A stretch of 40,914 bases of DNA from Acidobacteriaceae bacterium (GTDB taxonomy: Bacteria; Acidobacteriota; Terriglobia; Bryobacterales; Bryobacteraceae): positions 1-40,914 of the forward strand of contig JAFATG010000129.1 in NCBI GenBank assembly GCA_019244055.1. The letters run 5' to 3'. The position numbers and the translations under genes are program-made. Under the pieces are notes generated by a model. The model searched no databases, was not told where the DNA came from, and saw nothing but the letters and a program-made list of their open reading frames with translations. Each line of letters starts with the position of its first letter. Position 1 is the first letter of the stretch. Of this stretch, positions 4,213 through 20,019 are shown one piece after another.

Positions 4213-4731
4213 TCATGGCAGCGCAAAAAAGGAAAGGATCGCCCCGATCGCGATCGCGGGCGCATAGGGCATCTTTCGTGTAGACGGATTCCCTAAAACG
4301 AGGGTGGGATGCGGCCGGAACCCGCGCTTCCGGAATCCGAAAATCAGATCGCTCGTGCCGCTCAGCGACTCCTTTAAGAATCCACCGTACCAAGCCCAAG
4401 CGAACGCCATAACGCCGCCCGCCAGGCCCATCAAGGCCAGGGCCAGCAGTAATTGGCTCGGCCCGATCCATGCTCCGATCGCAGCGCATAACTTCACATC
4501 CCCCATTCCCATTCCTCCGAGCCAATAAAACACCCCCAACAGGAGCGCCGCCAGCAGCACTCCCTCCAAGCTGTGTTCAACCCCGCTCCAGCCGCCCGTT
4601 ACTCCAGAAACTATGATTCCGGCCAACAGAAAGGGAACCACCAGCCAGTTCGGGATGCGTCGGCTCTGGATGTCAAATAGGGCCGCGAGGATCACGGCAA
4701 AAATTGTAGGCCACCAGGCTAGAGAGTGCAT
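4213..4731 (-). CDS. cpaA: Prepilin peptidase of the Tad locus (CpaA/TadV type)
   Basis: Small A24-family aspartic prepilin peptidase that would cleave the Flp pilin leader. It has about six hydrophobic segments in 172 aa, and the two catalytic-aspartate motifs are visible: DIQSRRIPN near the N-terminus and GMGDVKL in the middle. It lacks the N-terminal cysteine domain of PilD-type enzymes, as expected for CpaA/TadV. The ATG at 4731 is preferred. A GTG at 4761 would add ten residues. Neither has a strong ribosome binding site. It is the first gene of the minus-strand Tad operon. A second, longer prepilin peptidase lies at 25.3 kb. Confidence 0.9.
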   Translation of the reverse strand: MHSLAWWPTIFAVILAALFDIQSRRIPNWLVVPFLLAGIIVSGVTGGWSGVEHSLEGVLLAALLLGVFYWLGGMGMGDVKLCAAIGAWIGPSQLLLALALMGLAGGVMAFAWAWYGGFLKESLSGTSDLIFGFRKRGFRPHPTLVLGNPSTRKMPYAPAIAIGAILSFFALP

Positions 4732-4864
4732 AAGAATGCGTTCACCGGGAAAAGCCAGCACCGGATTCGCTTAATACTGGCAATTCGGAAACCACTTGAA
4801 TGAGGAAGGCAAAGTATAGCAGGCTCGCGTGTCGCCGGGAACGCTGGCGCAGCACTGTCAACGC

Positions 4865-4907
4865 CTGTATACACAGCTACGCCGGGCGTTACGTGCTGTA
4901 TACGCAG
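4865..4907 (+). promoter_or_regulatory. Tandem CTGTATACnCAG repeats, putative activator sites
   Basis: CTGTATACACAG (4865-4876) and CTGTATACGCAG (4896-4907) match at 11 of 12 positions and start 31 bp apart, about three helical turns. The core TGTATACA of the first is a perfect palindrome. They lie about 75-105 bp upstream of the -24/-12 element, the usual place for NtrC-family enhancer-binding proteins. That they bind such an activator is inferred. Confidence 0.5.
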
Positions 4908-4970
4908 ATCGCGCTGCCCGCAGTTCTACGAATTTACTTATGGGCCAATGTTTCCACAACTTTTTAGATT

Positions 4971-4986
4971 TGGCTGGCCAATTGCC
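4971..4986 (+). promoter_or_regulatory. Putative sigma-54 (-24/-12) promoter of flp
   Basis: TGGCTGGCCAATTGCC matches the sigma-54 pattern TGGC-N7-TTGC. The invariant GG (4972-4973) and GC (4984-4985) have the required spacing. It would start transcription near 4997, giving a leader of about 54 nt before the pilin ATG. Sigma-54 control of pilin genes is well known in other bacteria. Here it rests on the sequence match and its position. Confidence 0.6.
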
Positions 4987-5050: not shown

Positions 5051-5257
5051 ATGCGAAACTCACTTTTAAAGCTCTATGTAAAGGCGCAATCACTGAAGAA
5101 TGCGCTGAAGCAAGAGAATGGACAGGACTTGGTGGAATATGCTGCGGTCATCATGCTGGTCGTGCTTGCCCTCGGCACTGGCATGAGCACCCTGGCCTCG
5201 GGCATCAACAGCGCCATGGGCGGGCTCGGTGCAAAGATCAGCGCGTTCCTGAGCTAA
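5051..5257 (+). CDS. flp: Flp family type IVb pilin
   Basis: Structural subunit of the Tad pilus. The 68-aa product has a short basic leader, then GQDLVEYAAVIMLVVLAL: the Flp signature with cleavage expected after the Gly (about residue 24), Glu at +5-like position followed by Tyr, and a single hydrophobic helix. The tail (STLASGINSAMGGLGAKIS) is Gly/Ser-rich, as in other Flp proteins. AGGAGA lies about 8 bp before the ATG. It is divergent from the Tad operon, with its own promoter and terminator, so the major pilin is probably expressed apart from the machinery. Confidence 0.95.
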   Translation: MRNSLLKLYVKAQSLKNALKQENGQDLVEYAAVIMLVVLALGTGMSTLASGINSAMGGLGAKISAFLS

Positions 5258-8148: not shown

Positions 8149-8987
8149 TCCGCAGCACGGTTCCATCTGAATCTACGGGCCGCACGTCCGAGCAGGTACA
8201 TGCCAAGGAAGCACGCTTTCACGACACTTGGGCATCCGAGACTGAACTCGAATCCTTGGACGTGCGTGCCGTTTTTGAAGCGCCGACCGCAATGGAGAAC
8301 GAATTTGTTCTTCAATTACTGGGGCCGCTCTCGGGCAGGCAGGTTCTCGATGTGGGCGCGGGCCTTGGAGAATCATCCGTTTACTTTGGCCTCAAAGGCG
8401 CCCGCGTCACATGCACGGATCTGTCCCCAGTAATGGTCGATTCGGCTGTTCGACTCGGGAGGCTAAACGGAGTGGAGATCGAAGGTATCGTTAGCTCCGG
8501 CGAGGATCTCAAGGTGGCGCCCGGCCAATTCGATATTGCATACATCGCCAACACGATTCATCACGTAACTGACAAGCGTGCTCTCTTCGAGCAGTTGCGG
8601 CGAGCCCTGAAGCCGGGCGGTATCTTCGTTTCCATAGACCCTCTGCGCTACAACCCGGTCATAAATACCTACCGCCGAATGGCCACGGCTGTTCGCACGG
8701 AGGACGAAGCTCCGCTAGGATTCGAGGTTCTCAATCTGGCACGCAAATATTTCGTGGATGTGCAGCACCGGGAGTTCTGGATCGCCTCTCTGGCCCTCTT
8801 TATAAAGTACTTCGCGGTCGATAGGATTCATCCGAACCAGGACCGGTATTGGAAACGTATTTTCCGCGAAACTCGGGAAACTCTAGGGTGGTGGCTGCCG
8901 TTGCGCGCGATCGATAGTTATCTCACGCGAATACCCGTTTTTCGCCGTCTGGCGTGGAATATGGTTATGTCGGGCCGCAAGCCGTAA
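8145..8987 (+). CDS. Class I SAM-dependent methyltransferase
   Basis: A 280-aa methyltransferase. Motif I is VLDVGAGLGE (residues 67-76), CTDLSPVMVD follows as motif II, and DIAYIANTIHHV is motif IV, with LKPGGIFVSIDPL after it: a Methyltransf_11/25-type fold. The C-terminal ~110 residues form an extra domain ending LAWNMVMSGRKP. The substrate is not known; a glycan or lipid-linked sugar is suggested by context. GGGAG lies 8 bp before the ATG, which overlaps the previous stop. A scrap matching its last ~20 codons is present at 12365-12433, so a second copy once existed nearby. Confidence 0.85.
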   Translation: MIRSTVPSESTGRTSEQVHAKEARFHDTWASETELESLDVRAVFEAPTAMENEFVLQLLGPLSGRQVLDVGAGLGESSVYFGLKGARVTCTDLSPVMVDSAVRLGRLNGVEIEGIVSSGEDLKVAPGQFDIAYIANTIHHVTDKRALFEQLRRALKPGGIFVSIDPLRYNPVINTYRRMATAVRTEDEAPLGFEVLNLARKYFVDVQHREFWIASLALFIKYFAVDRIHPNQDRYWKRIFRETRETLGWWLPLRAIDSYLTRIPVFRRLAWNMVMSGRKP

Positions 8988-9231
8988 TGGGCTGCTGGCA
9001 TGATGTCCTGCGGTCTCTCCGGTTCAGGGCGCGATTTGACGGCCGAGCCGGTATTCAGCGCCTGCATCCCGCACAGCGTGTCATCCGGCGGCAGACCTAC
9101 GATCAGGCGAGCGCAGGGATGTTGAAACGCAAACATCAGGGATAGCAATCAGAACAAGCAGTAAACGCTCCGTGCTCGGTCTCTTCCCCACTCTGGATGG
9201 GGGTGGCAGTCCGAATGCTAATATTCGCCTC

Positions 9232-10920
9232 ATGACTGCTCCCGAGGCACTGATCTCGGTATCTTCGTCTACTTGCGATGACAAATTGTCAATGGGAGTG
9301 GACAGAAAAGCCGACGATACTCGGGGCCTTCCGCCGTCTTGGATTCTGCTAGCTTTTGCCGCTGTCCTTCTGCGGTTTTGTTTTTGGAGCTTCACGTCGC
9401 GTGTTTGGGAAGATGCCCTGATCAGTGTTCTCCATTCAGAGAACGTTTTCCGTGGCATCGGCATGACGCACTTCCATCGGAATGGGATTCCGGTCCACGG
9501 CTTCACCAGCCCGATTAGTGTTTTGATCCCACTGGTTGGGGACTCTATTCGAGTCGGATGCGGATTAACACTGATTCGGGTTTTTTCGGCGTTTGCTAGC
9601 GGGATCGCAGTGCTGACGGGAATGTCGATCGCGCGGCAGTTGGGGTTGTCAAGATTCCTTGTTTGGATTGCTGGGGCGTATCTTGCCTTCGAGTACCACC
9701 AGATCCTTTGGGGTATGTCTGGTATGGAGACGCAGCTCGTCACGACGATTCTTCTGGTCTCCATTTGGAGCTTAAACAACAACGTCGGTGCAGTGCGCAC
9801 CGGACTTATGATGGCGCTGTGCATTCTTGCGCGTCCCGACTTTCTTGTGTGGGTCGGGATCATGTGCGCGGTCCTGCTCTGGCGTTGGTACAAAGACAGA
9901 AATCAAAACCGCGTCTGGGGGGGAATTACCGTCTTGGTTATTGCATACGCCCCCTGGCTCGTGTTTACCACCGTTTACTACGGAAGTCCGATTCCAAACA
10001 CAATACTGGCAAAAAGCGTTGGCTATCCGCTCTGGACGACCAGGTGGCCAGATGTTCCTACATTTCTCGGGATCATGGTGGTACGGGCCATCAAAGAACC
10101 GTTCGCGCCCTTAGGTCTGGTATACGGGGGGAACGGAACAGGCTTCTATTCGCTTGATGGATACACGGTAGAGTTCGTCGCGGCGGTGCTCGTTCTACTC
10201 GGCATCGCGATCAGCTTTCATCGAAAAGACCGCTTGATGATTCCAACCTCTTTATTCTTGGTGGCGTATTCGTTTTACTACATTTTTCTCGTACCGACTG
10301 TCTGTGGCTGGTATTGCGTTCCCACGTGTGCGACTGCGATGCTCGCGGTTCTCTACGCTATCCAGCATGCGGCGCCTCCCCACCCTTTTCGCAGGAACGT
10401 TGCCTATGTCGCGCTCGCGGCCTACGTTGTGGCACTTGTGGGCCTGCTGCCTATAGAGTTCCGGTCAGAACGGAACATTCAGATCTACGTCGAGAACGGG
10501 GTTCGAAAGCAGATGGCGTTGTACTTACGGAGGCACTCTAGTCCGAACGCCACGATTGGCCTTGAGCCTCTCGGTTACATGTCCTACTACTCTGGGAGGG
10601 AAATATACGATTATCCAGGCCTTGTCAATCGCGAGACGGTCCGCCTTTTGAAGACATATCCAGATAGAAGGCGTCTGGATCATATGCTCAAATGCAGACG
10701 GCCTGACTGGATCGTTCTCAGACGGAAGGAACTGAATGATCTCTTCTACGGCCACCCAGAAAACGACTGGCTCAAGGATAGCTACGTTCCAGTTAATGAG
10801 TTTACGGTTGACGGTCGCTTCTTTGATTCCGTGCTTGCGTCCCGCAAGAACATCGACACCGATTTTTTCGTTTTTCGAAAGGTGTTATCTCCCCTTCCGG
10901 CGGCTGCTGGAACCCCATGA
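9232..10920 (+). CDS. GT-C type membrane protein with T-x-E-R leader
   Basis: A multi-span membrane protein of about 562 aa resembling GT39/GT-C transferases. The first periplasmic-side loop has VWEDALISVLHSENV (acidic pair ED) and GIPVHGFTSPI; a soluble tail of about 120 residues follows the last helix. The residue order near the acidic pair and the following HGFTSP fit bacterial mannosyl/arabinosyl-type GT-C proteins, but I cannot name the donor. The start is uncertain: GTG 9172, ATG 9232 or ATG 9292 are in frame and none has a good ribosome binding site. I chose 9232 because it includes the conserved leader at 9271-9306. It overlaps the next gene by 4 bp. Confidence 0.68.
   Translation: MTAPEALISVSSSTCDDKLSMGVDRKADDTRGLPPSWILLAFAAVLLRFCFWSFTSRVWEDALISVLHSENVFRGIGMTHFHRNGIPVHGFTSPISVLIPLVGDSIRVGCGLTLIRVFSAFASGIAVLTGMSIARQLGLSRFLVWIAGAYLAFEYHQILWGMSGMETQLVTTILLVSIWSLNNNVGAVRTGLMMALCILARPDFLVWVGIMCAVLLWRWYKDRNQNRVWGGITVLVIAYAPWLVFTTVYYGSPIPNTILAKSVGYPLWTTRWPDVPTFLGIMVVRAIKEPFAPLGLVYGGNGTGFYSLDGYTVEFVAAVLVLLGIAISFHRKDRLMIPTSLFLVAYSFYYIFLVPTVCGWYCVPTCATAMLAVLYAIQHAAPPHPFRRNVAYVALAAYVVALVGLLPIEFRSERNIQIYVENGVRKQMALYLRRHSSPNATIGLEPLGYMSYYSGREIYDYPGLVNRETVRLLKTYPDRRRLDHMLKCRRPDWIVLRRKELNDLFYGHPENDWLKDSYVPVNEFTVDGRFFDSVLASRKNIDTDFFVFRKVLSPLPAAAGTP
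9271..9306 (+). repeat. Leader repeat copy 1 (TCDDKLSMGVDR)
   Basis: A 36-bp in-frame element that aligns without gaps to six others. It shares 29 of 36 bases with copy 4 at 14334, including TCA-nnG-GGA-GTG-GAC. It lies about 15 codons before the first membrane helix. Confidence 0.75.
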
Positions 10921-12278
10921 GAGCAAGCCAACCCTCCCGTGTCCGGGAACGGTCTTCGACCTCCCTAAATTCGCGGCATGGCTGCTATACGGACAGGAAT
11001 TCGCTTCCGGTGTTTACGAATGAGCGGAAACTGTCGATGGGAGTGGAAACCGGCCTGGGTTGGTACTGGCACGTCCTTGTGTTCTGCGCCGCGGTCGTTG
11101 TCATTATCTCCCGGCAACCCGGCGCCATTTTTCACGCTCAGTTTTTTGCAGAGGATGGGCACGCTTGGTTCGCTGACGCGTATAACCACGGCTGGTTTTT
11201 TTCCCTGTTTCGAACTTATAACGGGTATTATCAAACGGTTCCCCGGTTAGCAGCCGCGCTTGCACTGCTGGTCCCGCTTGCGTCCGCGCCACTCGTGACC
11301 AATCTTGTCGGTCTGGCGTTTCAGGCGCTTCCGGTATCCCTGCTTATCTCAACAAGGCTCTCGCGGTGGGGGCCGATAGGATTCCGCGCCGTACTCGGAA
11401 TTGCCTATCTAGCGATGCCGAACTGCTCGGAGGTCAATGTGACCGTCACGAACGCACAATGGCATTTGGCCCTAATCGCGTGCCTTCTCGTTCTCGCTGC
11501 CTCTCCGCAAACAAAGATATGGCGGTACTTTGATTCCGCAATGTTTGGCCTGTGTGGCCTGACGGGACCATTCTGTATGCTCCTGCTGCCGATTGCCTTC
11601 GCCATGCTCTACGTGAGGCGAGAGCGATGTCGCTGGATGCCGATCGCGATCCTCGCAATAGCTTCCGGGATTCAAGGTTATGCACTAGTGTTCGTGGATA
11701 GCGCGGCGCGGAGCCCTGCTCAGCTGGGTGCGAGCCCTGAATGGCTCACGCGATTGCTTGCAGGTCACGTCTACCTCGGTACGTTGGTGGGCCACAATTC
11801 GCTCGCGCTGCAGTTGGAAACATCAACGCTCCGCTGGATCGCTCTTATCGGGACCGGTCTATTCGTCTATTGGCTATTTAAAGCTGAAACAGAGATTCGG
11901 CTCTTCGCTTTGTTTAGCGCGTTGCTTTTGGCAGCCTCCCTGCGGAATCCGATGGTGCCCCGCGGCGTGGGACTTCCGGCGTGGCGTATTATGGGCGGTG
12001 CACCCGCCATACACTATTGGTTCATTCCCACGCTCGCCTGTTCCTGGATGCTCGTGTGGTACGTATTTGACCGCAAAAGCAATCAATTCACACAGATAAT
12101 TGGCGCAGTTCTTCTTCTCACGATGACCTACGGCTTCGTTCGCGACTTCAGGCATCCCGCTTACAGAGATTTGCAATTCGGCCAATATGTCGAGATGCTC
12201 GATCACGCGAAACCTGGAGAGACGCTGGTCATCCCCGAAAACCCGCAAGGCTGGGTTATTCAATTGGACAGACGGTAG
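10917..12278 (+). CDS. Multi-span membrane protein, GT-C-like, with T-x-E-R leader
   Basis: A 453-aa protein with about ten hydrophobic segments. The first loop reads FFAEDGHAWFADAYNHGW and then GYYQTVPRLAAALA; an acidic motif followed by a Gly-Tyr...PRL segment is seen in a family of large bacterial membrane proteins that I regard as GT-C-like. Its function is not established here. The ATG at 10917 overlaps the upstream stop (ATGA), suggesting coupling, but gives a 48-residue polar N-terminus. An ATG inside the leader at 11037 (GCGGAA upstream) is the alternative. The leader copy is at 11016-11051. No gene follows for about 425 bp. Confidence 0.65.
   Translation: MRASQPSRVRERSSTSLNSRHGCYTDRNSLPVFTNERKLSMGVETGLGWYWHVLVFCAAVVVIISRQPGAIFHAQFFAEDGHAWFADAYNHGWFFSLFRTYNGYYQTVPRLAAALALLVPLASAPLVTNLVGLAFQALPVSLLISTRLSRWGPIGFRAVLGIAYLAMPNCSEVNVTVTNAQWHLALIACLLVLAASPQTKIWRYFDSAMFGLCGLTGPFCMLLLPIAFAMLYVRRERCRWMPIAILAIASGIQGYALVFVDSAARSPAQLGASPEWLTRLLAGHVYLGTLVGHNSLALQLETSTLRWIALIGTGLFVYWLFKAETEIRLFALFSALLLAASLRNPMVPRGVGLPAWRIMGGAPAIHYWFIPTLACSWMLVWYVFDRKSNQFTQIIGAVLLLTMTYGFVRDFRHPAYRDLQFGQYVEMLDHAKPGETLVIPENPQGWVIQLDRR
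11016..11051 (+). repeat. Leader repeat copy 2 (TNERKLSMGVET)
   Basis: In-frame 36-bp element with TGAGCGGAAACTGTCGATGG in its centre. It keeps E-R, L-S-M-G-V and GGGAGTGGA but ends GAAACC rather than GACAGG, so the short TGTC/GACA pairing is lost here. Confidence 0.72.
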
Positions 12279-12364
12279 GCCAAACTGGGCGAGCATTTGA
12301 TATCAAGCAAATGAAATGAATCAGAAAACATGCGGAGCGCCTGGCATCAAGGCATGTTCACAAT

Positions 12365-12433
12365 CCAGCGGCACGTTTGCCCATTGTCCGCCTCTTGGCG
12401 TGGAACATGGTGATGTCAGGACGCAAGCCGTAA
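12365..12433 (+). pseudogene. Remnant of a methyltransferase C-terminus
   Basis: One frame reads PAARLPIVRLLAWNMVMSGR then KP and TAA. The last 12 residues (LAWNMVMSGRKP) are identical to the C-terminus of the methyltransferase at 8145-8987, and R-[IL]-P-[VI] upstream is also kept. The DNA differs at several synonymous positions (for example AACATGGTGATGTCAGGACG against AATATGGTTATGTCGGGCCG), so this is an old copy rather than an assembly artefact. Upstream of about 12350 I cannot trace similarity. Confidence 0.72.
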
Positions 12434-12460
12434 TACGGCGCCGATGCAGCCGTGATATCT

Positions 12461-12496
12461 ACCGCAGAGCGCACGCTATCGACGCGAGACGACAGC
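12461..12496 (+). repeat. Orphan leader repeat copy 3 (TAERTLSTRDDS)
   Basis: Aligns without gaps to the other leaders in peptide (T-A-E-R-T-L-S) and DNA (GAGCGCACG...TCGACG.GAG..GACAG) but is not followed by a membrane protein. It begins 28 bp past the stop of the methyltransferase remnant, so it probably marks the start of a lost GT-C gene. Confidence 0.55.
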
Positions 12497-12704
12497 TATT
12501 TGCTATCTTTCTCTCACTATCCGGAGTTCGTTGCTTGTGTGCTGGGTTCTGCTGAGTGCGGCATGGCTCAGATGCGTCCGTATTGCCAAAAGCCACACTG
12601 CTCCTTCGATTTGGATCGCCAATTGCGACACCAAATAAGTTCAAGTAATCGCCAATGATCATTCGCCGGACATGGGCCAAAATGAAAACCGGGGAGGAAT
12701 CCAC

Positions 12705-14027
12705 TTGTCTGACGATGAACCGCGCGCGACGGTTGGAAGCGCACTTTCCACCCGTGCCCTTCGAAGGCTCAGCACGCCGATCAAAAGCGCGGTGCTCGCA
12801 CTTATAATTCCCGTCCTACTGGTTTCAGCTCTCAGATGGCCGCTAGAGTTTGCGCAGATCCTAAATGATCCGCATGCCGCCGCAAACAAGGATTTCGTTT
12901 CGTATTGGGCGGCGGGCAAATTACTTGTTAGCCATAGGAATCCCTACGATGCCCGGGCGGCCCGGACCCTAGAAAAAGCTGCTGGGTATCTACCAAGCCA
13001 AGGACTCACGATGCGGAACCCGCCCGTGGCCCTCTTCCTTGTGGTGCCACTTGGCCTGTTGGGAATAAAGTGGGCGGTGTTCCTGTGGACGCTCCTTATC
13101 GCGGCATGCGTTGCAGTGGCGGTTCGCGTCGTTTGGACGATGCACGCCCGTCCTCCGAACAAAATTCATATGCTCGGCTTTGTATTTCCAGCGGCGATCT
13201 CCTGCTTGGCGGCCGGCCAAACCTCCGCATTCGCGCTTGTTGGTCTCACGCTTTTCCTTTGCCTGAACAAGAGGAGGCCGTTTCTGGCGGGAGTGTCCAT
13301 CGCAGTCTGCGCCATCAAGCCCCATTTGTTTCTGCCATTCGGCGCGGTGCTTCTGATGTGGATCATCATCAACAGGCTTTGGCCGGTTATCCTGGGCGCG
13401 GTTACCGCGTTGGTAGCGTCGCTGGCAATAGTAATGTCTTTTCACGGGCCGGTGTGGTCAGAATATTTCGCGATGCTAACGACTGACGGGGTTGGCCGCG
13501 ATCTAATTGCTGTTACTAGCTCACTCTTGCGGTTTGCAATCAACCGGAACGAGATGTGGCTTCAGTTTGTGCCGGCTATGCTCGGCATCCTCTGGGCGGT
13601 GTGGTATTTCCGGCGGCATCGCACAGGCTGGGATTGGCAGACGATGGGGTCATTGCTTTTGCTGGTTTCGCTCTTCGTCGCGCCGTATTCCTGGTTTTTT
13701 GACGAAATCATCCTGATCCCAGCGATCCTGCACGGGATCTATGCGAGCAGCAATCAGCTGCGGGCCGGGCTTGGCTTCGGCGTGATTTCCTGTGTAGCAA
13801 CGGTCGAAGGGCTCGCTGGAGTTCCGCTCTACTCCGGACTGTACATGTGGACAAGCGCGCTATGGCTTGGCTGGTATGTTCTGGAGACCCGCCAGTCAGC
13901 TCCGGTCCCAGAGGCGAACATGCATATGTTGTTGGATCCAGGTACAAGAGGCGATATGGCTGCTCAGATGCCGCAGCTTGTTCAGCAGGATAACAATGCC
14001 TTGGCGTTAAAAAGGAAGCGAACATGA
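12705..14027 (+). CDS. GT87/DUF2029-like membrane glycosyltransferase
   Basis: A 440-aa protein with about eleven hydrophobic segments. The first loop has NKDFVSYWAAGKLLVSHRNPYD, matching the GT87 (DUF2029) pattern of an Asp followed by YxAAGxLL...NPYD, and AAGQTSAFAL fits the later G-Q motif. GT87 includes polyprenyl-phosphate-mannose-dependent mannosyltransferases; the sugar here is unknown. I chose the TTG at 12705 because GGGGAGGA lies 6 bp upstream; the ATG at 12672 has no such site. This is the only GT-C gene from 9.2 to 19.8 kb whose leader (MSDDEPRATVGSAL) does not align with the repeat. Its stop overlaps a small frame at 14024. Confidence 0.78.
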   Translation: MSDDEPRATVGSALSTRALRRLSTPIKSAVLALIIPVLLVSALRWPLEFAQILNDPHAAANKDFVSYWAAGKLLVSHRNPYDARAARTLEKAAGYLPSQGLTMRNPPVALFLVVPLGLLGIKWAVFLWTLLIAACVAVAVRVVWTMHARPPNKIHMLGFVFPAAISCLAAGQTSAFALVGLTLFLCLNKRRPFLAGVSIAVCAIKPHLFLPFGAVLLMWIIINRLWPVILGAVTALVASLAIVMSFHGPVWSEYFAMLTTDGVGRDLIAVTSSLLRFAINRNEMWLQFVPAMLGILWAVWYFRRHRTGWDWQTMGSLLLLVSLFVAPYSWFFDEIILIPAILHGIYASSNQLRAGLGFGVISCVATVEGLAGVPLYSGLYMWTSALWLGWYVLETRQSAPVPEANMHMLLDPGTRGDMAAQMPQLVQQDNNALALKRKRT

Positions 14028-14122
14028 TTACCCGCAAACGTTTCGCCATGGAAATGCCGCCGTACAGCGCCGAAAAAACCGTTCGAGTGCCTGTCTGCCG
14101 ATCTGGGGCCCTGAGCTTCTAG
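14024..14122 (+). CDS. Possible small protein, 32 aa
   Basis: The ATG overlaps the stop of the GT87-like gene (ATGA), and AAGGAA lies 7-8 bp upstream, a better ribosome binding site than most large genes here have. The product MITRKRFAMEMPPYSAEKTV followed by 12 more residues is basic and has no membrane helix. I do not recognise it. It may be a real small protein, or the residue of a longer gene cut off before the terminator at 14237. Confidence 0.3.
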   Translation: MITRKRFAMEMPPYSAEKTVRVPVCRSGALSF

Positions 14123-14236
14123 CCCAAGCCGGACTGCCGCAGTAGTAACTCCATTTCCCAAATTGCCCCCCACAGCTAAGCGTGAGGTGGTTGTGTTCGG
14201 GCCGATCGGCGTCACCGCAGGGCGATTCCAAAAGTG

Positions 14237-14268
14237 AAACGGGGCGACGAATCGCCCCGTTTTCTCTT
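14237..14268 (+). terminator. Rho-independent terminator between GT-C genes
   Basis: AAACGGGGCGA (14237-14247) pairs perfectly with TCGCCCCGTTT (14252-14262) across loop CGAA, followed by TCTCTT. It separates the unit ending at 14.1 kb from the next GT87-like gene, which therefore needs its own promoter. Confidence 0.85.
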
Positions 14269-14294
14269 GGCCCCCGGAATGCTGGCATCCCCAC

Positions 14295-15461
14295 GTGGCC
14301 GCATGGGAGGTGGTATCCAATAAATTTCTGTCTACTTGCGAAGGCAGAGTGTCATCGGGAGTGGACAGGCGATCCGCTTGGCCGGTCTTTCTTTTCTGCC
14401 TATTCAGTTGGGCATTGCCCCTTGTACTCTGGCGCGGCATGATCCTATCCTCCACCAGCGTTCGTGATTTCACGCCATTTTTCGTTGGCGCGAAATTACT
14501 CGGCACGCCGCATCTTTACGATGTAGCCGCCAATATGGCCGTTCAACAAAGTCTTGTCGGGCACGCTGAGGCGAACGTGAGTTTCATAAGGCCACCATTC
14601 TTTGCCGCCGCACTAAGGCCGTTTACGTGGATGGCGTACGCGCACGCGCTGTTGATCTGGGAGTTGCTGCTGATTGGCTCTGTCGTTGCATTCGTCTGTT
14701 GCTTGCCTCTGGTGCCACGCCAGTGGACAGCAATCGCCGCCTGGTGCTCGGTCCCGGCCATGTTTGGAATTGGCTGCGGAAACGACGCTACTGTGATAGT
14801 GCTGTGGATCGCGCTGGCCCTCCTATGCTGGACAAACGGGCGCCGCTTCCTTGCCGGTGCTGTACTCGGGCTGTGTCTGGCTAAATTCCACCTTCTTTTG
14901 TTCTTGCCTCTGCTGCTATTGCAACGCCGATATCGGCGCATCCTGGTTGGATTTTCCGTCGTGACCGGAACGCTTCTGGCCGTCAATTGGGCCGTTCAGC
15001 CGGGCTGGATGCGCTTGTATGCGCACGTTTTACGAATGCCGCCCGAGAATATACCGAGAGCAAATTTTTACTTAAATTCCCATCCGGTAGCGAGCGTGCT
15101 TTTCGGAACATTTCTAATCGGGTTGCTGCTCTGGCCCATTTGTCAGCGCGCTCCATTCGACCTGGCGCTCCCGATTTGTATTCTGGGCGGCGTGATGGCC
15201 TCGCCCCATGCTGGCATAATGGATCTTGTTCTGGCGATTCCCGCCTTACTAATCACGGCCCATCGTTTTCCGCAACTTAAGTTCTTCGCCTGGCTCTTAC
15301 TTTCTCCATTGGCGACCTGTCTGTATTGGGGGGCTTTTGGCAAGCCCGGGGCCATTCTATTCATAGCCGCAACGCTCTGGCTAATTTCCCGCGTTCGTCA
15401 ATTCACAGCCCGTACTTCGTGTTCAGATACGTCTCTATCTGGGTCACTTGCGTCCGGGTGA
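14295..15461 (+). CDS. GT87/DUF2029-like membrane protein with T-x-E-R leader
   Basis: A 388-aa protein with about ten hydrophobic segments. VRDFTPFFVGAKLLGTPHLYD in the first loop matches the GT87 Asp...GAKLL...LYD pattern, and IGCGNDATVIVLW stands where other GT87 proteins have a G-N/Q motif. It is shorter than most family members. The GTG at 14295 is the first in-frame start; GGGAGG lies just after it but has no well-placed start codon downstream. The leader is at 14334-14369. It comes 27 bp after a terminator and is followed by 223 bp without a clear gene. Confidence 0.75.
   Translation: MAAWEVVSNKFLSTCEGRVSSGVDRRSAWPVFLFCLFSWALPLVLWRGMILSSTSVRDFTPFFVGAKLLGTPHLYDVAANMAVQQSLVGHAEANVSFIRPPFFAAALRPFTWMAYAHALLIWELLLIGSVVAFVCCLPLVPRQWTAIAAWCSVPAMFGIGCGNDATVIVLWIALALLCWTNGRRFLAGAVLGLCLAKFHLLLFLPLLLLQRRYRRILVGFSVVTGTLLAVNWAVQPGWMRLYAHVLRMPPENIPRANFYLNSHPVASVLFGTFLIGLLLWPICQRAPFDLALPICILGGVMASPHAGIMDLVLAIPALLITAHRFPQLKFFAWLLLSPLATCLYWGAFGKPGAILFIAATLWLISRVRQFTARTSCSDTSLSGSLASG
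14334..14369 (+). repeat. Leader repeat copy 4 (TCEGRVSSGVDR)
   Basis: In-frame 36-bp element closest to copy 1. It contains GTGTCATCGGGAGTGGACAG, in which TGTC and GACA can pair around a GGGAG-bearing loop. Confidence 0.78.
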
Positions 15462-15684
15462 CCGCCACTTACGCTGTGTAGAGCGCCCCAGAATGTTGCG
15501 CCGAAGGGCTGAGTGCTGCTGGAGTTGCCTTGCTGACGTTTACGCCTGTGTTAATAGCCATTGCGGATTACGAGGAGCGCAGATCCATCTGTGGGCCGGT
15601 AAAATCGCCTTGCGGTAATCGGGTTTGTCGCGTCGAACTGTTCGTATGTCGCGTAGCTCGGGCCGACGGCCTTGCTGACATCCC

Positions 15685-17052
15685 ATGCTGGTGCGATTGT
15701 GCCGAATGGCTAACGAATTGCGCAAGATCCCGCTAATGGTTGCGCTAAATCCTCCAAATACGGAAGTTGTTCCGACACATGAGTGCAGGGTGCCAACGCG
15801 AGAGGGCAAGCGCGGCATACCGTTACCAGCCATCGTCTTCCTAGGAGGCTTTCAGGCATTCCTGGTAACGCTTTTCTGTTTCGGCCCTGCTTTCGGAACA
15901 TCGATTGAATCGGTAGCCGTCGCCCGATCGCTTGCGGCTACCGGGCAGTTCGCCAACGCATATACTCCGTTGGCTACAGGCGCTACGGCCCACTTGGCGC
16001 CTCTCTATCCGGTATATCTCGCTGTTCTGCTGCGCACCTTCAGTGCTATGCCTACCGTAGTATTCATCGCTTCGCTGGCCAACGCCTATGTCTTTGGGCT
16101 GCTCTTGTCTCTTTTGCCGCCGATTGCGGATTTGATTTACCAGCGGGAAGAAGGGATCGGGCTGACCGCAGCACTCATTGGCATCGCAATTCCCTCGTTC
16201 GAGATGGTGCCCCAAGGGGAGATGGCTGTTTTCGCGGTGGGCGTCGCCTCCTTTTGCCTGTTGTCGTTGCGCGATGTTCGCTGGCGCGAGTGGCTGGTCG
16301 GTCTGCTGGCCGGGTTGACAACGCTGACCAATCCGGCGGGCGTCCTCTTTATGGCATGGTGGCTTGTCGGATTGCGCGTGCTCCGCCGCTGGACTAGCAA
16401 GCAACTCTCGATAGCTGTGGCGATCGCCTTTCTCGTTTGCTTCCCATGGATGCTCCGGAATGCGATGACACTTGGCACATTCGCGATCCGCGATGATCTG
16501 GGACTGGAGTTCTACCTCTACGACAATGACCTGTCGCAACCGTCCTTCATGAGCAACACGCCGGTGTTTCACAAACTTTCGCCGAGCTGGAACCGGAGCG
16601 AGGCTGAGGAGGTCAAAAGACTCGGCGAGAAGCGCTATAACGCGGCCAAGTTCCGTACTGCTTTTGAATGGATCAAGACGCACCGCTTGCGATTCGTGGT
16701 GTTGAGTTTGGAGCGATACGCGATGTTCTGGTTTCCGGATCGGCGTTATTTCCCCATCGGGTACGGCGCCTGGCTCATCACCGGTCTCTCGCTTCCGTCC
16801 ATGTTGTCGGCAGTGCGAAGGGGACTCTCGCTTGAGTCGCTCCTCGTCGGCGGACTGGTGCTTTTTTCGCTACCGTACGCGCTCGTCAACGCAGATTTCC
16901 GCTATCGAGATCCAGTGGTCTGGATAACGCTCCTGTTTGCGGCGAAGACTGTTATGCAAATAGCTGGCAAGCATTCTTGGCTCCGCCTACGCCATTGTCT
17001 TCGCGCCAAATTCCGCCGCATTGGCGGAGAAAAATATCCGTCGCCAACTTGA
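15685..17052 (+). CDS. GT39-like membrane glycosyltransferase
   Basis: A 455-aa protein with about ten hydrophobic segments. The first loop (GTSIESVAVARSLAATGQFA, then HLAPLYPVYLAV) matches the GT39/ArnT-like layout of an acidic residue, a run of small residues, G-x-F and a P-x-Y-P motif. NPAGVLFMAWWLVG follows in the membrane part. RYAMFWFPDRRYFP in a late loop is also family-like. Starts at 15685, 15706 and 15736 are all possible and none has a clear ribosome binding site. A diverged leader copy (THECRVPTREGK) is at 15775-15810. Confidence 0.75.
   Translation: MLVRLCRMANELRKIPLMVALNPPNTEVVPTHECRVPTREGKRGIPLPAIVFLGGFQAFLVTLFCFGPAFGTSIESVAVARSLAATGQFANAYTPLATGATAHLAPLYPVYLAVLLRTFSAMPTVVFIASLANAYVFGLLLSLLPPIADLIYQREEGIGLTAALIGIAIPSFEMVPQGEMAVFAVGVASFCLLSLRDVRWREWLVGLLAGLTTLTNPAGVLFMAWWLVGLRVLRRWTSKQLSIAVAIAFLVCFPWMLRNAMTLGTFAIRDDLGLEFYLYDNDLSQPSFMSNTPVFHKLSPSWNRSEAEEVKRLGEKRYNAAKFRTAFEWIKTHRLRFVVLSLERYAMFWFPDRRYFPIGYGAWLITGLSLPSMLSAVRRGLSLESLLVGGLVLFSLPYALVNADFRYRDPVVWITLLFAAKTVMQIAGKHSWLRLRHCLRAKFRRIGGEKYPSPT
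15775..15810 (+). repeat. Leader repeat copy 5, diverged (THECRVPTREGK)
   Basis: Aligns without gaps to copy 4; 23 of 32 bases match over the core 15779-15810. The usual TGTC/GACA pair is replaced by TGCC/GGCA, which keeps the pairing. Confidence 0.6.
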
Positions 17053-17401
17053 GTCGCTTCTCGCCGACCGAATCTCAGAGATCCAGAAAGGGTCGTGTAA
17101 TAGTGTTCCGAATGCCGAATAAAGTGACACCGCTGGATGCTGCGGACGATTGCCGTGCTTCGTATCTGCCGACCGCCGAATCCCTCGGGAACGCACAGCT
17201 TCGGTCGTCGTCCTGTCTGCTACGCCCTTACCTACTTGCTGTGGCGGCAAGGGCGCTTCCAATCAGGTCTAAACTCAATCAGAAAGTTGGCTCTCGCTTC
17301 CTTGGTAATGCGAGGTATAAATTGTTGTGTCTCGCGGCCTCTGAGTCGGTTCAGAGTCCTCGCAAGCCCGCGCGGAGCAGGCAAATCCCGACTTCGGGTG
17401 C
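17053..17401 (+). other. Non-coding stretch with a GT87 scrap
   Basis: About 350 bp with no intact gene. It holds a short relic of a GT87-like gene (17190-17262). The remaining open frames have no recognisable product or ribosome binding site. Confidence 0.55.
17190..17262 (+). pseudogene. Short GT87-like gene relic
   Basis: The frame reading CYALTYLLWRQGRF matches SAYVLTYSL-stop-QQGRF in the pseudogene at 17402-18487, and the DNA GGCAAGGGCGCTTC against AGCAAGGGCGCTTC confirms it (TGTCTGC-TACG...CTGT.GC.GCAAGGGCGCTTC). Similarity fades upstream of about 17190 and stops sharply at 17262. Confidence 0.6.
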
Positions 17402-17437
17402 ACAGAAGCGCGCACGGTGTCAACGGGAGCGGACACT
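17402..17437 (+). repeat. Leader repeat copy 6 (TEARTVSTGADT)
   Basis: 36-bp element at the head of the GT87-like pseudogene. GTGTC and GACAC can form a 5-bp stem around CAACGGGAGCG-like loop bases. The conserved T-E-A-R lies upstream of the first GTG, so the original start was further upstream. Confidence 0.7.
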
Positions 17438-18487
17438 GAACCTATCCGCGTAGACAGGAACTTGCTCGTCGTTCTTTTCCTCGTGCTAGCGGGAGTCGCC
17501 CTTGCACATCAGGTATGGGACGCACATTTCGATTTTGGCGTTTTCTATTACGCAGCGCACGTGGTCCTTGGGGGAGCACGGCACGCGCTGTATGATCTGC
17601 CGACGCAGCGGGTCTTCCAGGTACAGTTTCACCGGCCTGTGGCGCTACTCTTTTATTACCCGCCATTTGTGTTGATACCGTTCATTTTTCTCGCCGGGTT
17701 GCCGATCGAAGTCGCATTCATAATCTGGACAGCGCTGTCGCTGGCTTTACTCGTCTCAAGCGTGCAAACTCTCGTGCGCCACGCAGGGCTTCGATATGGA
17801 AATTGGCCGATCCTGCTGTCTCTAGTGTTTATACCCGTCGCTTCCTGCCTTGGCCAGGGGCAACTTTCTCTTTTGGTTTTTGTCTGCCTACGTCCTGACG
17901 TACTCGCTGTAGCAGCAAGGGCGCTTCTTTCTCGGTGAAGCTGTGCTTGCGATCGCCACATTCAAGTTCCAACTCGTCCTCGGCTTCATAGCCTTGCTGC
18001 TGTTAAAGCGGAAATGGCGGGAACTGTTGGGTTTCGCAAGCGGGAGCGCCGTCCTCGTGGGTTTTTCGGTTCTGATGACGGGTGTACCAACCTTACTTCG
18101 CTGTCCCATATTTGCCCGGCAGAGCGAGGGAGGGGTCCCGTTCCGAACCGTACAAGATGGCGTGCTGGCGCGGGCTCGTGTCCTTGCTGGGGCCGCACCA
18201 TGCATTTCTTGTTGCCAAAATCTCGCTACTAACGATTCTATTCGCGGCTCGGCTGTGGCAGGACGTCGACACCGGATTTTGTGCAGCAATCCTCGCGGCC
18301 ATGCTGGTGAGCTACCATTTCAGCCCCAGGACTTATCGCTGTTCTTAATTCCTGTTTTGTAAGTAAGAGGATCGGATTCCCAAAAGAACGCCTCCTACAC
18401 CTCGCCTTGTCAGTCCTTCTGATCACGGAGATCCTGGCGATATTCGGCGGCTATTATCCATTGTTGGCGATTCCTCTCGTGCTGTAG
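17402..18487 (+). pseudogene. Frameshifted GT87/DUF2029-like membrane protein
   Basis: A GT87-like gene broken by several frameshifts. It starts well: FDFGVFYYAAHVVLGGARHA then LYDLPTQ is the typical first loop, and CLGQGQLSLLVF the G-Q motif. Near 17880 the frame shifts and meets TAG at 17910-17912, where the relic at 17.2 kb has TGG. LGEAVLAIATFKFQLVLGF continues in the second frame. LLGPHHAFLVAKISLL is in a third. SPQDLSLFLIPVL needs a further shift, and the last piece, ILAIFGGYYPLLAIPLVL, ends at TAG 18485-18487. All parts fall in the order of an intact GT87 protein, so at least four frameshifts have built up. Confidence 0.8.
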
Positions 18488-18606
18488 CTTAGGTGGATGT
18501 GGCAGCATCATGGCAGCCGTACTGAAATCGCGGTGTTGTAGCAAATTAACCGGCGATGGATTGTAAGCCAGCAAGATCAGCCAATGAGGGTTTGGCCGAT
18601 ACCCCA

Positions 18607-19761
18607 TCACTCCGACGTTGAAAGCCGCTCTTGCCGGTCATGAGTGAGCGATAGCTGAATGGCTGGCGAAAGAATTAAAGCAGCAATCACGAAAACGCAG
18701 ACGAGCAGTTGCGCAATAATCGAGTAATCCGAAGCCAAAGTGAAAAGAAGGACTGGCGAGAGCAGAAGCACGGCGGCAAGGCGGATCCATTCCGGCAGTC
18801 GCCCCTCTCGTGCCACAATCACACAGAGCGGTAACAAGAGCAGGCAGTCATACCCTTGGGAGTGGTGTGCCATCAGTAACCCTGTAGCCGAAGCTAGCGC
18901 ACCGGCAACCGTAAGCGACGTCCGTCTGCACGCAAACCACAGAGCGGATGCAATGACTGCGGATAGCAGGATCTCCAGCATGAGCCCATGTGGAAAGCGA
19001 GCGACGAGTCCGTATACGTCCGGCATGCGATTCGTAGCCGGAGAGAACTCGGGCAATCTCATATTTGCCCCATAAAGCGTGGGCCAAGTGGGACCTTCGA
19101 GCGCGAAGCACATCATCAGCAAAAACGCTGTCGATAAGATTCCGCCAAAAATCGTCTTCCACTCTCTGCGTGCTAACAACATGACCCCCAGGCCAATCAG
19201 CAAATGAAACTTGCAGATGCACAGCGCAAAGGTAATACCAGCGGCATAGCAATGGCCGCGGCGCAGCAGGTAAAGCCCCGACGCAAAGAGCAGGAGCCAG
19301 AACAGAACCTCCTGGCCATAAAACAGAGTGAAGCAAGCGGGCAAGGACCAACACAAGGCGATCAGCATAGCGGCACGGTCAACATCTGGCCAAAGCAACA
19401 GCGCGAGAATGCCGGCCAAAATGCTGGCGGTGAGCCATACCTTTCGCGCGATCGCAAACGGTAAGACAGAAAGAGGCTTGAAGGTGAGCGCGACTACGGG
19501 CAGTCTTCCTGTAAGGAAGCCGGGCGCGCCGTATCGAGCCTCGATTGCGACCATCGCTTGCCGATCGTAAAGATGGCCTGTTCCAGCAAGCTTTCCAGCC
19601 GCATAAAACTGGATGAAATCGGAGCTCAGATTTGCATGGTTCGTTTGGGTCGCGACCCATAAATTGAAGAGAATACCGAGAGCGGAAAGAACTGGCTTCC
19701 ACATCAGCTTTGGGACCCGCCTGTCTACTCCCGGTGACACACTGCGCTCATCTGTACCCAT
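18607..19761 (-). CDS. GT87/DUF2029-like membrane protein with T-x-E-R leader
   Basis: The only intact GT-C gene of the island on the minus strand. The 384-aa product has about ten hydrophobic segments. SSDFIQFYAAGKLAGTGHLYD is the GT87 first-loop motif, FYGQEVLFWLLLF the G-Q motif, and HHSQGYDCLLLLPL the late loop. The ATG at 19761 is preferred because it starts just before the leader (MGTDERSVSPGVDRR). In-frame ATG 19794 and TTG 19833 are alternatives, and none has a strong ribosome binding site. It converges on the pseudogene at 18487 and is divergent from the MoxR gene. Confidence 0.78.
   Translation of the reverse strand: MGTDERSVSPGVDRRVPKLMWKPVLSALGILFNLWVATQTNHANLSSDFIQFYAAGKLAGTGHLYDRQAMVAIEARYGAPGFLTGRLPVVALTFKPLSVLPFAIARKVWLTASILAGILALLLWPDVDRAAMLIALCWSLPACFTLFYGQEVLFWLLLFASGLYLLRRGHCYAAGITFALCICKFHLLIGLGVMLLARREWKTIFGGILSTAFLLMMCFALEGPTWPTLYGANMRLPEFSPATNRMPDVYGLVARFPHGLMLEILLSAVIASALWFACRRTSLTVAGALASATGLLMAHHSQGYDCLLLLPLCVIVAREGRLPEWIRLAAVLLLSPVLLFTLASDYSIIAQLLVCVFVIAALILSPAIQLSLTHDRQERLSTSE
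19720..19755 (-). repeat. Leader repeat copy 7 (TDERSVSPGVDR)
   Basis: Minus-strand 36-bp copy, inverted with its gene. Its core GTGTCACCGGGAGTAGACAG differs from copy 4 at only two of 20 bases. Confidence 0.78.
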
Positions 19762-20019
19762 TCCCGGCGCATTAACGGCCGTTACCGCGGACATTGAGCA
19801 ACAGAGAGCAGGCGAGATTCCATAAAAACACAATGGCGCCTAGTCGGAAGTCCTCGGAAGTGCCGTTGAGGGCAGATCTGTTTGAATTGTCGACGGCACT
19901 CGGTTCGCTCTCAAGGCCAAATCATAACGTGCTAAGCACTTATAGCTGGGTGCCAAAATGCCCTTTCGAAATTAGGATTGCTAGACTTGTGACTGACAAC
20001 GAGAGCGCGAGTAATTTGG

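Follow-up and report, generated by a model that had tools for sequence, protein, structure and literature searches.

Our analysis concerns a 36-bp leader element that occurs seven times in a 40,914-nucleotide stretch of DNA from an Acidobacteriaceae bacterium of the family Bryobacteraceae (contig JAFATG010000129.1 of assembly GCA_019244055.1; the window, below, is this whole stretch), chiefly at the starts of genes for GT-C membrane proteins. The leader probably marks a PrsR-like sigma-54 regulon whose activator sites lie inside the coding sequence, the peptide common to the genes being mainly a by-product of those sites. The grounds for this reading, all taken from sequence, are sigma-54-type promoters and their spacing, palindromes, constraint on the nucleotides, recurrence in other genomes, and the co-occurrence and linkage of a candidate activator, a bacterial enhancer-binding protein (bEBP). 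The first-pass annotation of this DNA missed the promoters, the tandem palindromes and the candidate activator; its observation of a shared leader was correct and useful, and the cause is most likely regulatory DNA that is read through as peptide.

The seven elements, whose positions and peptides had been given correctly, align without gaps and agree pairwise at 19 to 29 of 36 positions; the conserved unit measures about 39 to 41 bp, taking in TGTCT directly 5' of the 36-mer. Its 18-bp core, with up to three mismatches, is matched five times in the window against an expectation of 0.01, and nine times in the whole 6.2-Mb genome, namely the same five and four on other contigs. Each of those four has three mismatches, with a position weight matrix (PWM) score of 9.8 in one case and below 9 in three, while the seven window copies score 35.6 to 44.0 under the 36-nt PWM and 36.8 to 48.8 under a 44-nt PWM. 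A 44-nt profile (R1) run on the same genome returned the seven copies at E values of 3.8e-6 or less and two further matches at 0.43 and 0.93. On the minus strand at 14328-14367, copy 14334 (copies are called by their start positions) is palindromic enough to give a reverse-strand match to the profile (21 bits; E 0.43). The motif is not at chance frequency, and the scan of the 6.2-Mb genome with core and PWM revealed no leader copy comparable with the window's seven. The proteins behind the leader are strongly diverged, as the annotation had held: for the six window copies that have a gene, the gene bodies are 0.38-0.45 identical in nucleotides, against 0.53-0.81 for the leaders, and 0.23-0.34 identical in amino acids, which is no better than a comparison of GT-C with AT3 proteins.

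The start codon lies exactly 39 nt 5' of the 36-mer in nine of 13 copies. Because of this, and because the codon concerned reads CTG, CTA, GCG or ACG in some copies, a start within the motif itself (GTG, position 16) was rejected. The description of six in-frame GT-C leaders and one orphan needs correction: at copy 11016 the ATG is shifted one base out of frame and copy 17402 has lost both its start codon and its promoter. The supposed orphan, copy 12461, is in a different frame from the GT87 gene that begins 211 nt downstream.

The element consists of two tandem 18-bp palindromes of the type TGTCNAC-N4-GTNGACA, set 21 bp apart in codons 12 to 25. When 18-bp sites were scored in 13 copies, the main site averaged 10.5 out of 12 and the second, exactly 21 bp upstream of it, 8.3, random sequence giving 3.5. 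Enhancers for bEBPs contain at least two palindromes of dimer size in helical phase, and the two 18-bp sites at 21 bp are such a pair. The best inverted repeat, TGTCAAC-N4-GTGGACA, was reached in none of 200 column shuffles and the direct repeat in four (20 of 200 with the window's seven copies alone); column shuffling was preferred here to simple z-scores, which are inflated by conserved columns.

All nine copies that have a gene start carry GG-N10-GC, the -24/-12 elements of a sigma-54-type promoter, 12 to 15 nt 5' of the start codon (chance about 0.026 each), and GG-N9-TGC is invariant in the promoter alignment. At the same distance the motif is found in none of 17 other window genes, some of them operon-internal, ten of which have it elsewhere within 90 nt. 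This count, like the profile R3 used below, leaves out copies 11016, 12461 and 17402, whose starts are lost or shifted; it retains the remnant of an AT3 gene in genome G001 despite a one-base frame shift there. In copies 11016 and 17402 the promoter has been wrecked by one base in each, and in the copy of genome G119, found later, a sigma-54-type promoter is likewise present. Because sigma-54 start points lie about 12 nt downstream of the GC, we infer that transcription would begin close to the leader start codon, a few nt away at most. Promoters of this class require an activator. The promoters of a Flp-pilin-like gene (4955-4985) and of GT87 gene 12672 (12596-12626), taken with their flanks, are 77% alike.

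The same kind of site also occurs in the conventional position, upstream of a promoter. Judged by its surroundings, the element at 12456-12494 is in enhancer position, since it lies 117 nt before the TGGATCGCCAATTGC promoter of GT87 gene 12672. Under the relaxed pattern TGTMNAC-N4-GTNKACA, the window and 21 bEBP loci, 364 kb in all, yielded 13 pairs of a site and a sigma-54 promoter 55 to 125 nt apart; control loci totalling 356 kb yielded none, as did four shuffles. The 13 pairs involve ten sites, as one site may serve two divergent promoters, and six of the pairs were obtained from 16 loci that were added once the pattern had been fixed. These related palindromes lie 68 to 118 nt from sigma-54 promoters on the upstream side, with a mean spacer of 69 nt, and include TGTAAAC-N4-GTTTACA. 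Of the genes behind the pairs, four are pilin-like and three encode membrane proteins of the bEBP-linked type; L356, L358 and L361 are also among the loci that have pairs. Upstream placement is confined to the pilin, bEBP-linked and 12672 promoters; no second such site was found upstream of the leader copies at two mismatches or fewer, and no conserved site of another kind was seen upstream of the leader genes.

Profile R3, which is longer than R1 and was built from nine copies, was run on 237 genomes of the Bryobacteraceae and detected the leader in five, the source genome included. In the four others it starts AT3 or membrane-protein genes, so that beyond the source genome the leader stands before AT3 genes as well. 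In G024 (Acidobacteriaceae bacterium KBS 96) it begins an AT3 gene (PF01757); G016, a metagenome-assembled Bryobacteraceae genome, has two divergent leader genes, one for an AT3 protein and one for a membrane protein with no Pfam hit that is GT-C-like by eye; and in G001 the AT3 remnant with its leader adjoins a gene that is orthologous to window gene 10917 (56% identity) and whose leader has decayed. The G119 locus lies outside the R3 model and was found at an E value of 6e-5. A search of 396 genomes of the phylum with profile R2 reached 8e-5 for matches in one repeated register, several of which share conserved sequence taken by eye for an ABC-F gene; the value for G119 is therefore no proof by itself, and the locus was accepted on features read afterwards. 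The product of its leader gene (L301, 13432-13677) has 82 residues, a single hydrophobic stretch and no match in Pfam, and is neither GT-C nor AT3. The 39 other weak R3 loci have 44-nt PWM scores of 17.3 or less, far from the range of the window's seven, and weak matches across 60 relatives were inspected and rejected. An exact pattern, which catches just some of the known copies, was scanned across taxa and gave 14 stretches, two of them real by PWM and both already known (G024 and G016), and one real locus, L155, emerged from scans of viral sequence. Stricter filters applied to searches over more than 40 genomes. The leader-bearing AT3 gene of G024 (L100, 8638-9720) adjoins phage tail genes (PHROG tape measure and tail fibre J), and the same stretch is present in the IMG/VR viral contig L155, in the manner of a moron-like surface-modifying gene.

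A candidate for the activator is encoded on the G016 contig that carries the two leader genes, 5 kb from them: a sigma-54 bEBP (PF00158). In a search of 12 genomes, G000, G001, G016 (two copies) and G024 proved to have orthologues that are 61% identical or more over almost their whole length; seven leader-less members of the genus and G119 gave only full-length matches of lower identity or matches to the AAA+ part. Across the family, with six candidates scored per genome, 20 of the 237 genomes have an orthologue (truncated in one, G004), and these include four of the five leader genomes (P 1.8e-4, phylogeny ignored); within the genus it is present in three of three leader genomes, against four of 17 (P 0.006, with phylogeny again ignored). 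The G024 bEBP lies near pilin, GT2 and methyltransferase genes that are 49%, 72% and 59% identical to the window's 5051, 5351 and 8145, in the vicinity of the second G016 copy is a protein with 52% identity to window 6373, and one PEP-CTERM protein is encoded near the G016 bEBP. The bEBP scores 349.8 bits against the PrsR model (TIGR02915), short of the curated cut-off of 502.6, and for this reason we call it PrsR-like and not PrsR.

These features suggest a mechanism in which each gene would have its own sigma-54 promoter with a start point at or a few nt from the start codon. The two 18-bp palindromes, some 34 to 72 nt downstream, would lie two helical turns apart on the same face of the DNA, where dimers of the PrsR-like activator (AAA+ domain, Fis-type helix-turn-helix, response-regulator-like N-terminus) would bind them and touch the sigma-54 polymerase from the downstream side. 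The 12-residue peptide would then be mostly what the DNA sites chance to encode. We infer that this particular bEBP binds the sites and that it activates rather than represses.

A number of observations weigh against this proposal. Activator sites so near downstream of a promoter are unusual. At the leader genes with an intact start the sites are all downstream, outside the typical enhancer position 80 to 150 bp upstream. The half-site also differs, being TGTCNAC in the leaders and often TGTAAAC upstream; the relaxed pattern was fixed after two upstream sites had been seen, and 12 of the 21 bEBP loci have no upstream site-promoter pair. The distribution of the protein is imperfect too: in 16 of the 20 genomes with the bEBP no leader was detected (best E 0.0056); in G119, conversely, a leader is present and the orthologue is missing (best match 41%, in an assembly 88% complete); and the source genome's bEBP is on another contig (C207), not in the window. 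Finally, only in the G000 orthologue does the Fis-type helix-turn-helix exceed the Pfam cut-off, and the response-regulator match of that orthologue falls below it.

Some of these points would suit an arrangement in which the sites tune the sigma-54 promoter from just downstream, either as operators for a repressor or as targets of another DNA-binding protein (other bEBPs included). Their place just inside the transcribed region fits a roadblock, some 20 to 60 candidate bEBP-like loci per genome were counted at first look, and the orthologue is absent from G119. We consider such an arrangement unlikely, given that the related palindrome upstream of other sigma-54 promoters occupies an activator's place and that the leader promoters need an activator, yet show no other conserved site upstream.

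The first-pass annotation had suggested a docking tag. On such a reading the leader would be a functional cytoplasmic N-terminus selected as protein, with conservation of the nucleotides secondary. The leader is in frame in every copy with an intact gene, and Thr and Glu/Asp are kept while third positions are free in motif codons 1 and 3. Differences among 12 copies are nevertheless spread almost evenly over the codon positions (0.37/0.34/0.47), whereas the orthologous GT-C pair of 10917 and G001 shows 0.34/0.23/0.62, and rare codons are retained: over the 12 copies, Ser is TCA in eight of 11 cases (usage 8%) and Gly is GGA in eight of eight (20%), which bears out the earlier remark that synonymous bases are kept. 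In G119 the palindrome has perfect arms (TGTCAAC-GTCG-GTTGACA) while the GGGA spacer and the residue it encodes are altered, and copy 12461 has been retained as a non-coding site before a sigma-54 promoter. The even codon positions, the G119 arms and the non-coding copy disfavour the tag, which we regard as improbable; as far as these alignments go, the leader is constrained as DNA, synonymous bases included.

Control at the level of RNA, through a hairpin or an antisense target in the early coding region, is less probable still, and with it the translational control once suggested for the leader. A short stem can arise from the inner palindrome, with a five-pair hairpin predicted on the 44-nt block, and folding is good in two of 12 copies (z -2.5 and -2.7); but that hairpin coincides with the palindrome itself, the other ten copies are no better than z -1.2, no fold is conserved across the 86-column leader alignment, and an Rfam scan of the window matched no family. 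The hairpin was thus rejected for want of a leader-wide fold, appealing as its inner stem was. An ops/JUMPstart (RfaH) element with a NusG paralogue was also considered, but the NusG matches did not discriminate: more than one NusG-domain match occurs in four of four leader genomes searched (G119 left out) and in four of eight others. G001, G012, G017, G024 and G016 have four to eight such matches each, that is, many specialised paralogues. Functionless recent duplication, or gene conversion of 5' ends, is hardly credible, for although the end of a methyltransferase gene (8934-8988) is duplicated (82%) at 12380-12434, just 5' of copy 12461, as a trace of tandem duplication, and one copy sits on a pseudogene, the gene bodies are at background identity and the leaders are not, and in other genomes the copies precede other gene families.

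The features of the window are listed in the table. A 40-bp direct repeat (85%) at 17220-17259 and 17888-17927 lies within the GT87 pseudogene region.

Table. Predicted promoters and palindromic sites in the window.
Feature	Coordinates	Strand	Remark
Sigma-54-type promoter TGGTTTCCGAATTGC, facing prepilin peptidase gene 4213-4761	4780..4794	-	PF01478
Palindrome TGTCAACGCCTGTATACA, upstream site in the conventional place, flanked by two divergent sigma-54-type promoters	4856..4873	.	perfect TGTMNAC-N4-GTNKACA match
Sigma-54-type promoter TGGCTGGCCAATTGC, Flp-pilin-like gene 5051-5257 (68 aa)	4971..4985	+	pilin label by eye; no Pfam hit
Sigma-54-type promoter TGGCAGTCCGAATGC, gene 9232-10920	9204..9218	+	GC 13 nt 5' of ATG 9232
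Tandem palindromes 9266-9283 and 9287-9304, copy 1 (9271)	9266..9304	+	codons 12-25 of gene 9232-10920
Decayed promoter GG-N10-CC	10951..10964	+	13 nt 5' of out-of-frame ATG (10978)
Tandem sites, copy 2 (11016)	11011..11049	+	inside gene 10917-12278, whose longest frame begins in ATGA overlap with preceding gene
Tandem sites, copy 3 (12461, 'orphan')	12456..12494	+	117 nt 5' of sigma-54-type promoter of GT87 gene 12672
Sigma-54-type promoter TGGATCGCCAATTGC, GT87 gene 12672-14027	12612..12626	+	
Sigma-54-type promoter TGGCCCCCGGAATGC, GT87 gene 14295-15461 (start GTG)	14268..14282	+	
Tandem sites, copy 4 (14334)	14329..14367	+	
Sigma-54-type promoter TGGCTAACGAATTGC, gene 15736-17052	15707..15721	+	
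Tandem sites, copy 5 (15775)	15770..15808	+	most diverged copy
Decayed promoter GG-N10-GG of GT87 pseudogene	17336..17349	+	
Tandem sites, copy 6 (17402)	17397..17435	+	inside pseudogene
Tandem sites, copy 7 (19755)	19722..19760	-	inside GT87 gene 18607-19794
Sigma-54-type promoter TGGAATCTCGCCTGC, gene 18607-19794	19808..19822	-	

Downstream activating sequences for bEBPs, such as those of RocR at rocG and the ftr sites of FlbD, activate sigma-54 promoters from the downstream side, although they are not known to do so from a fixed place within the first few codons of a range of unrelated genes. Among described systems, the control of PEP-CTERM genes by PrsR comes nearest. The PrsR/PrsK/PrsT regulon of Proteobacteria, as outlined by Haft et al. 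2006 (PMC1569441), has a two-part cis-site in which motif 1, with TTTACA at its end, precedes the -24/-12 sigma-54 motif by about 63 nt, an NtrC-like activator deduced from co-occurrence, and linked exopolysaccharide genes. Our system resembles it in its single genes, two-part site, co-occurring NtrC-like candidate activator and exopolysaccharide linkage, and in its upstream TGTAAAC-N4-GTTTACA sites. It differs in that the activator motif of the leader genes is downstream and within the gene, where the PrsR motif, on that outline, is never in coding sequence; the targets here are moreover GT-C, AT3 and pilin genes of Acidobacteriota, and the bEBP is below the PrsR cut-off. The boxes of FleQ (PMC10723142) are similar in being bound by dimers with a Fis-type helix-turn-helix, in their GTCAA/TTGAC palindromes and in their tandem arrangement at biofilm genes; as described there they are 14 bp long with a 2-nt centre, and ours are 18 bp with a 4-nt spacer, lie in coding sequence and are 21 bp apart. 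The intragenic sites of Nla28 and Nla6 in Myxococcus (PMC7910581) likewise place half-sites for bEBPs, together with sigma-54 promoters, in coding sequences, but in that account, which gives 80 to 150 bp upstream as typical of bEBP enhancers, the bEBP site precedes its promoter and a peptide common to unrelated proteins does not feature. A study of the sigma-54 regulome, as summarised, allows that promoters at which no enhancer is visible may use downstream or intragenic sites and states that coding conservation precludes predicting them (PMC4641369). A literature search by title and abstract, with subscription journals mostly outside it, found nothing describing the present arrangement.

The presence of one site in unrelated proteins makes the DNA signal separable from the protein signal, which matters since activator sites of sigma-54 are normally sought only upstream of promoters and genes. 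It also carries a caution: a short N-terminal motif common to unrelated proteins may be regulatory DNA read as peptide. Sigma-54 is described as a controller of the cell exterior (PMC3162934), and our findings tie the pili, GT-C and AT3 enzymes of Acidobacteriota to one candidate activator. More tentatively, and with a little less than even confidence, we suggest that a transferable 5' cassette of about 105 bp, made up of a sigma-54 promoter, a start codon and tandem activator sites within the gene, fronts unrelated families of membrane proteins and has spread by duplication, once to a place beside phage tail genes. A recombination cassette was among the earlier proposals, and it survives in this weak form; no recombination system was seen and none was searched for. 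By such a route one surface-glycan activator could capture new genes, stamping the same N-terminal peptide on each, and sigma-54 control through enhancers within coding sequence would then be a regular occurrence, invisible to current scans.

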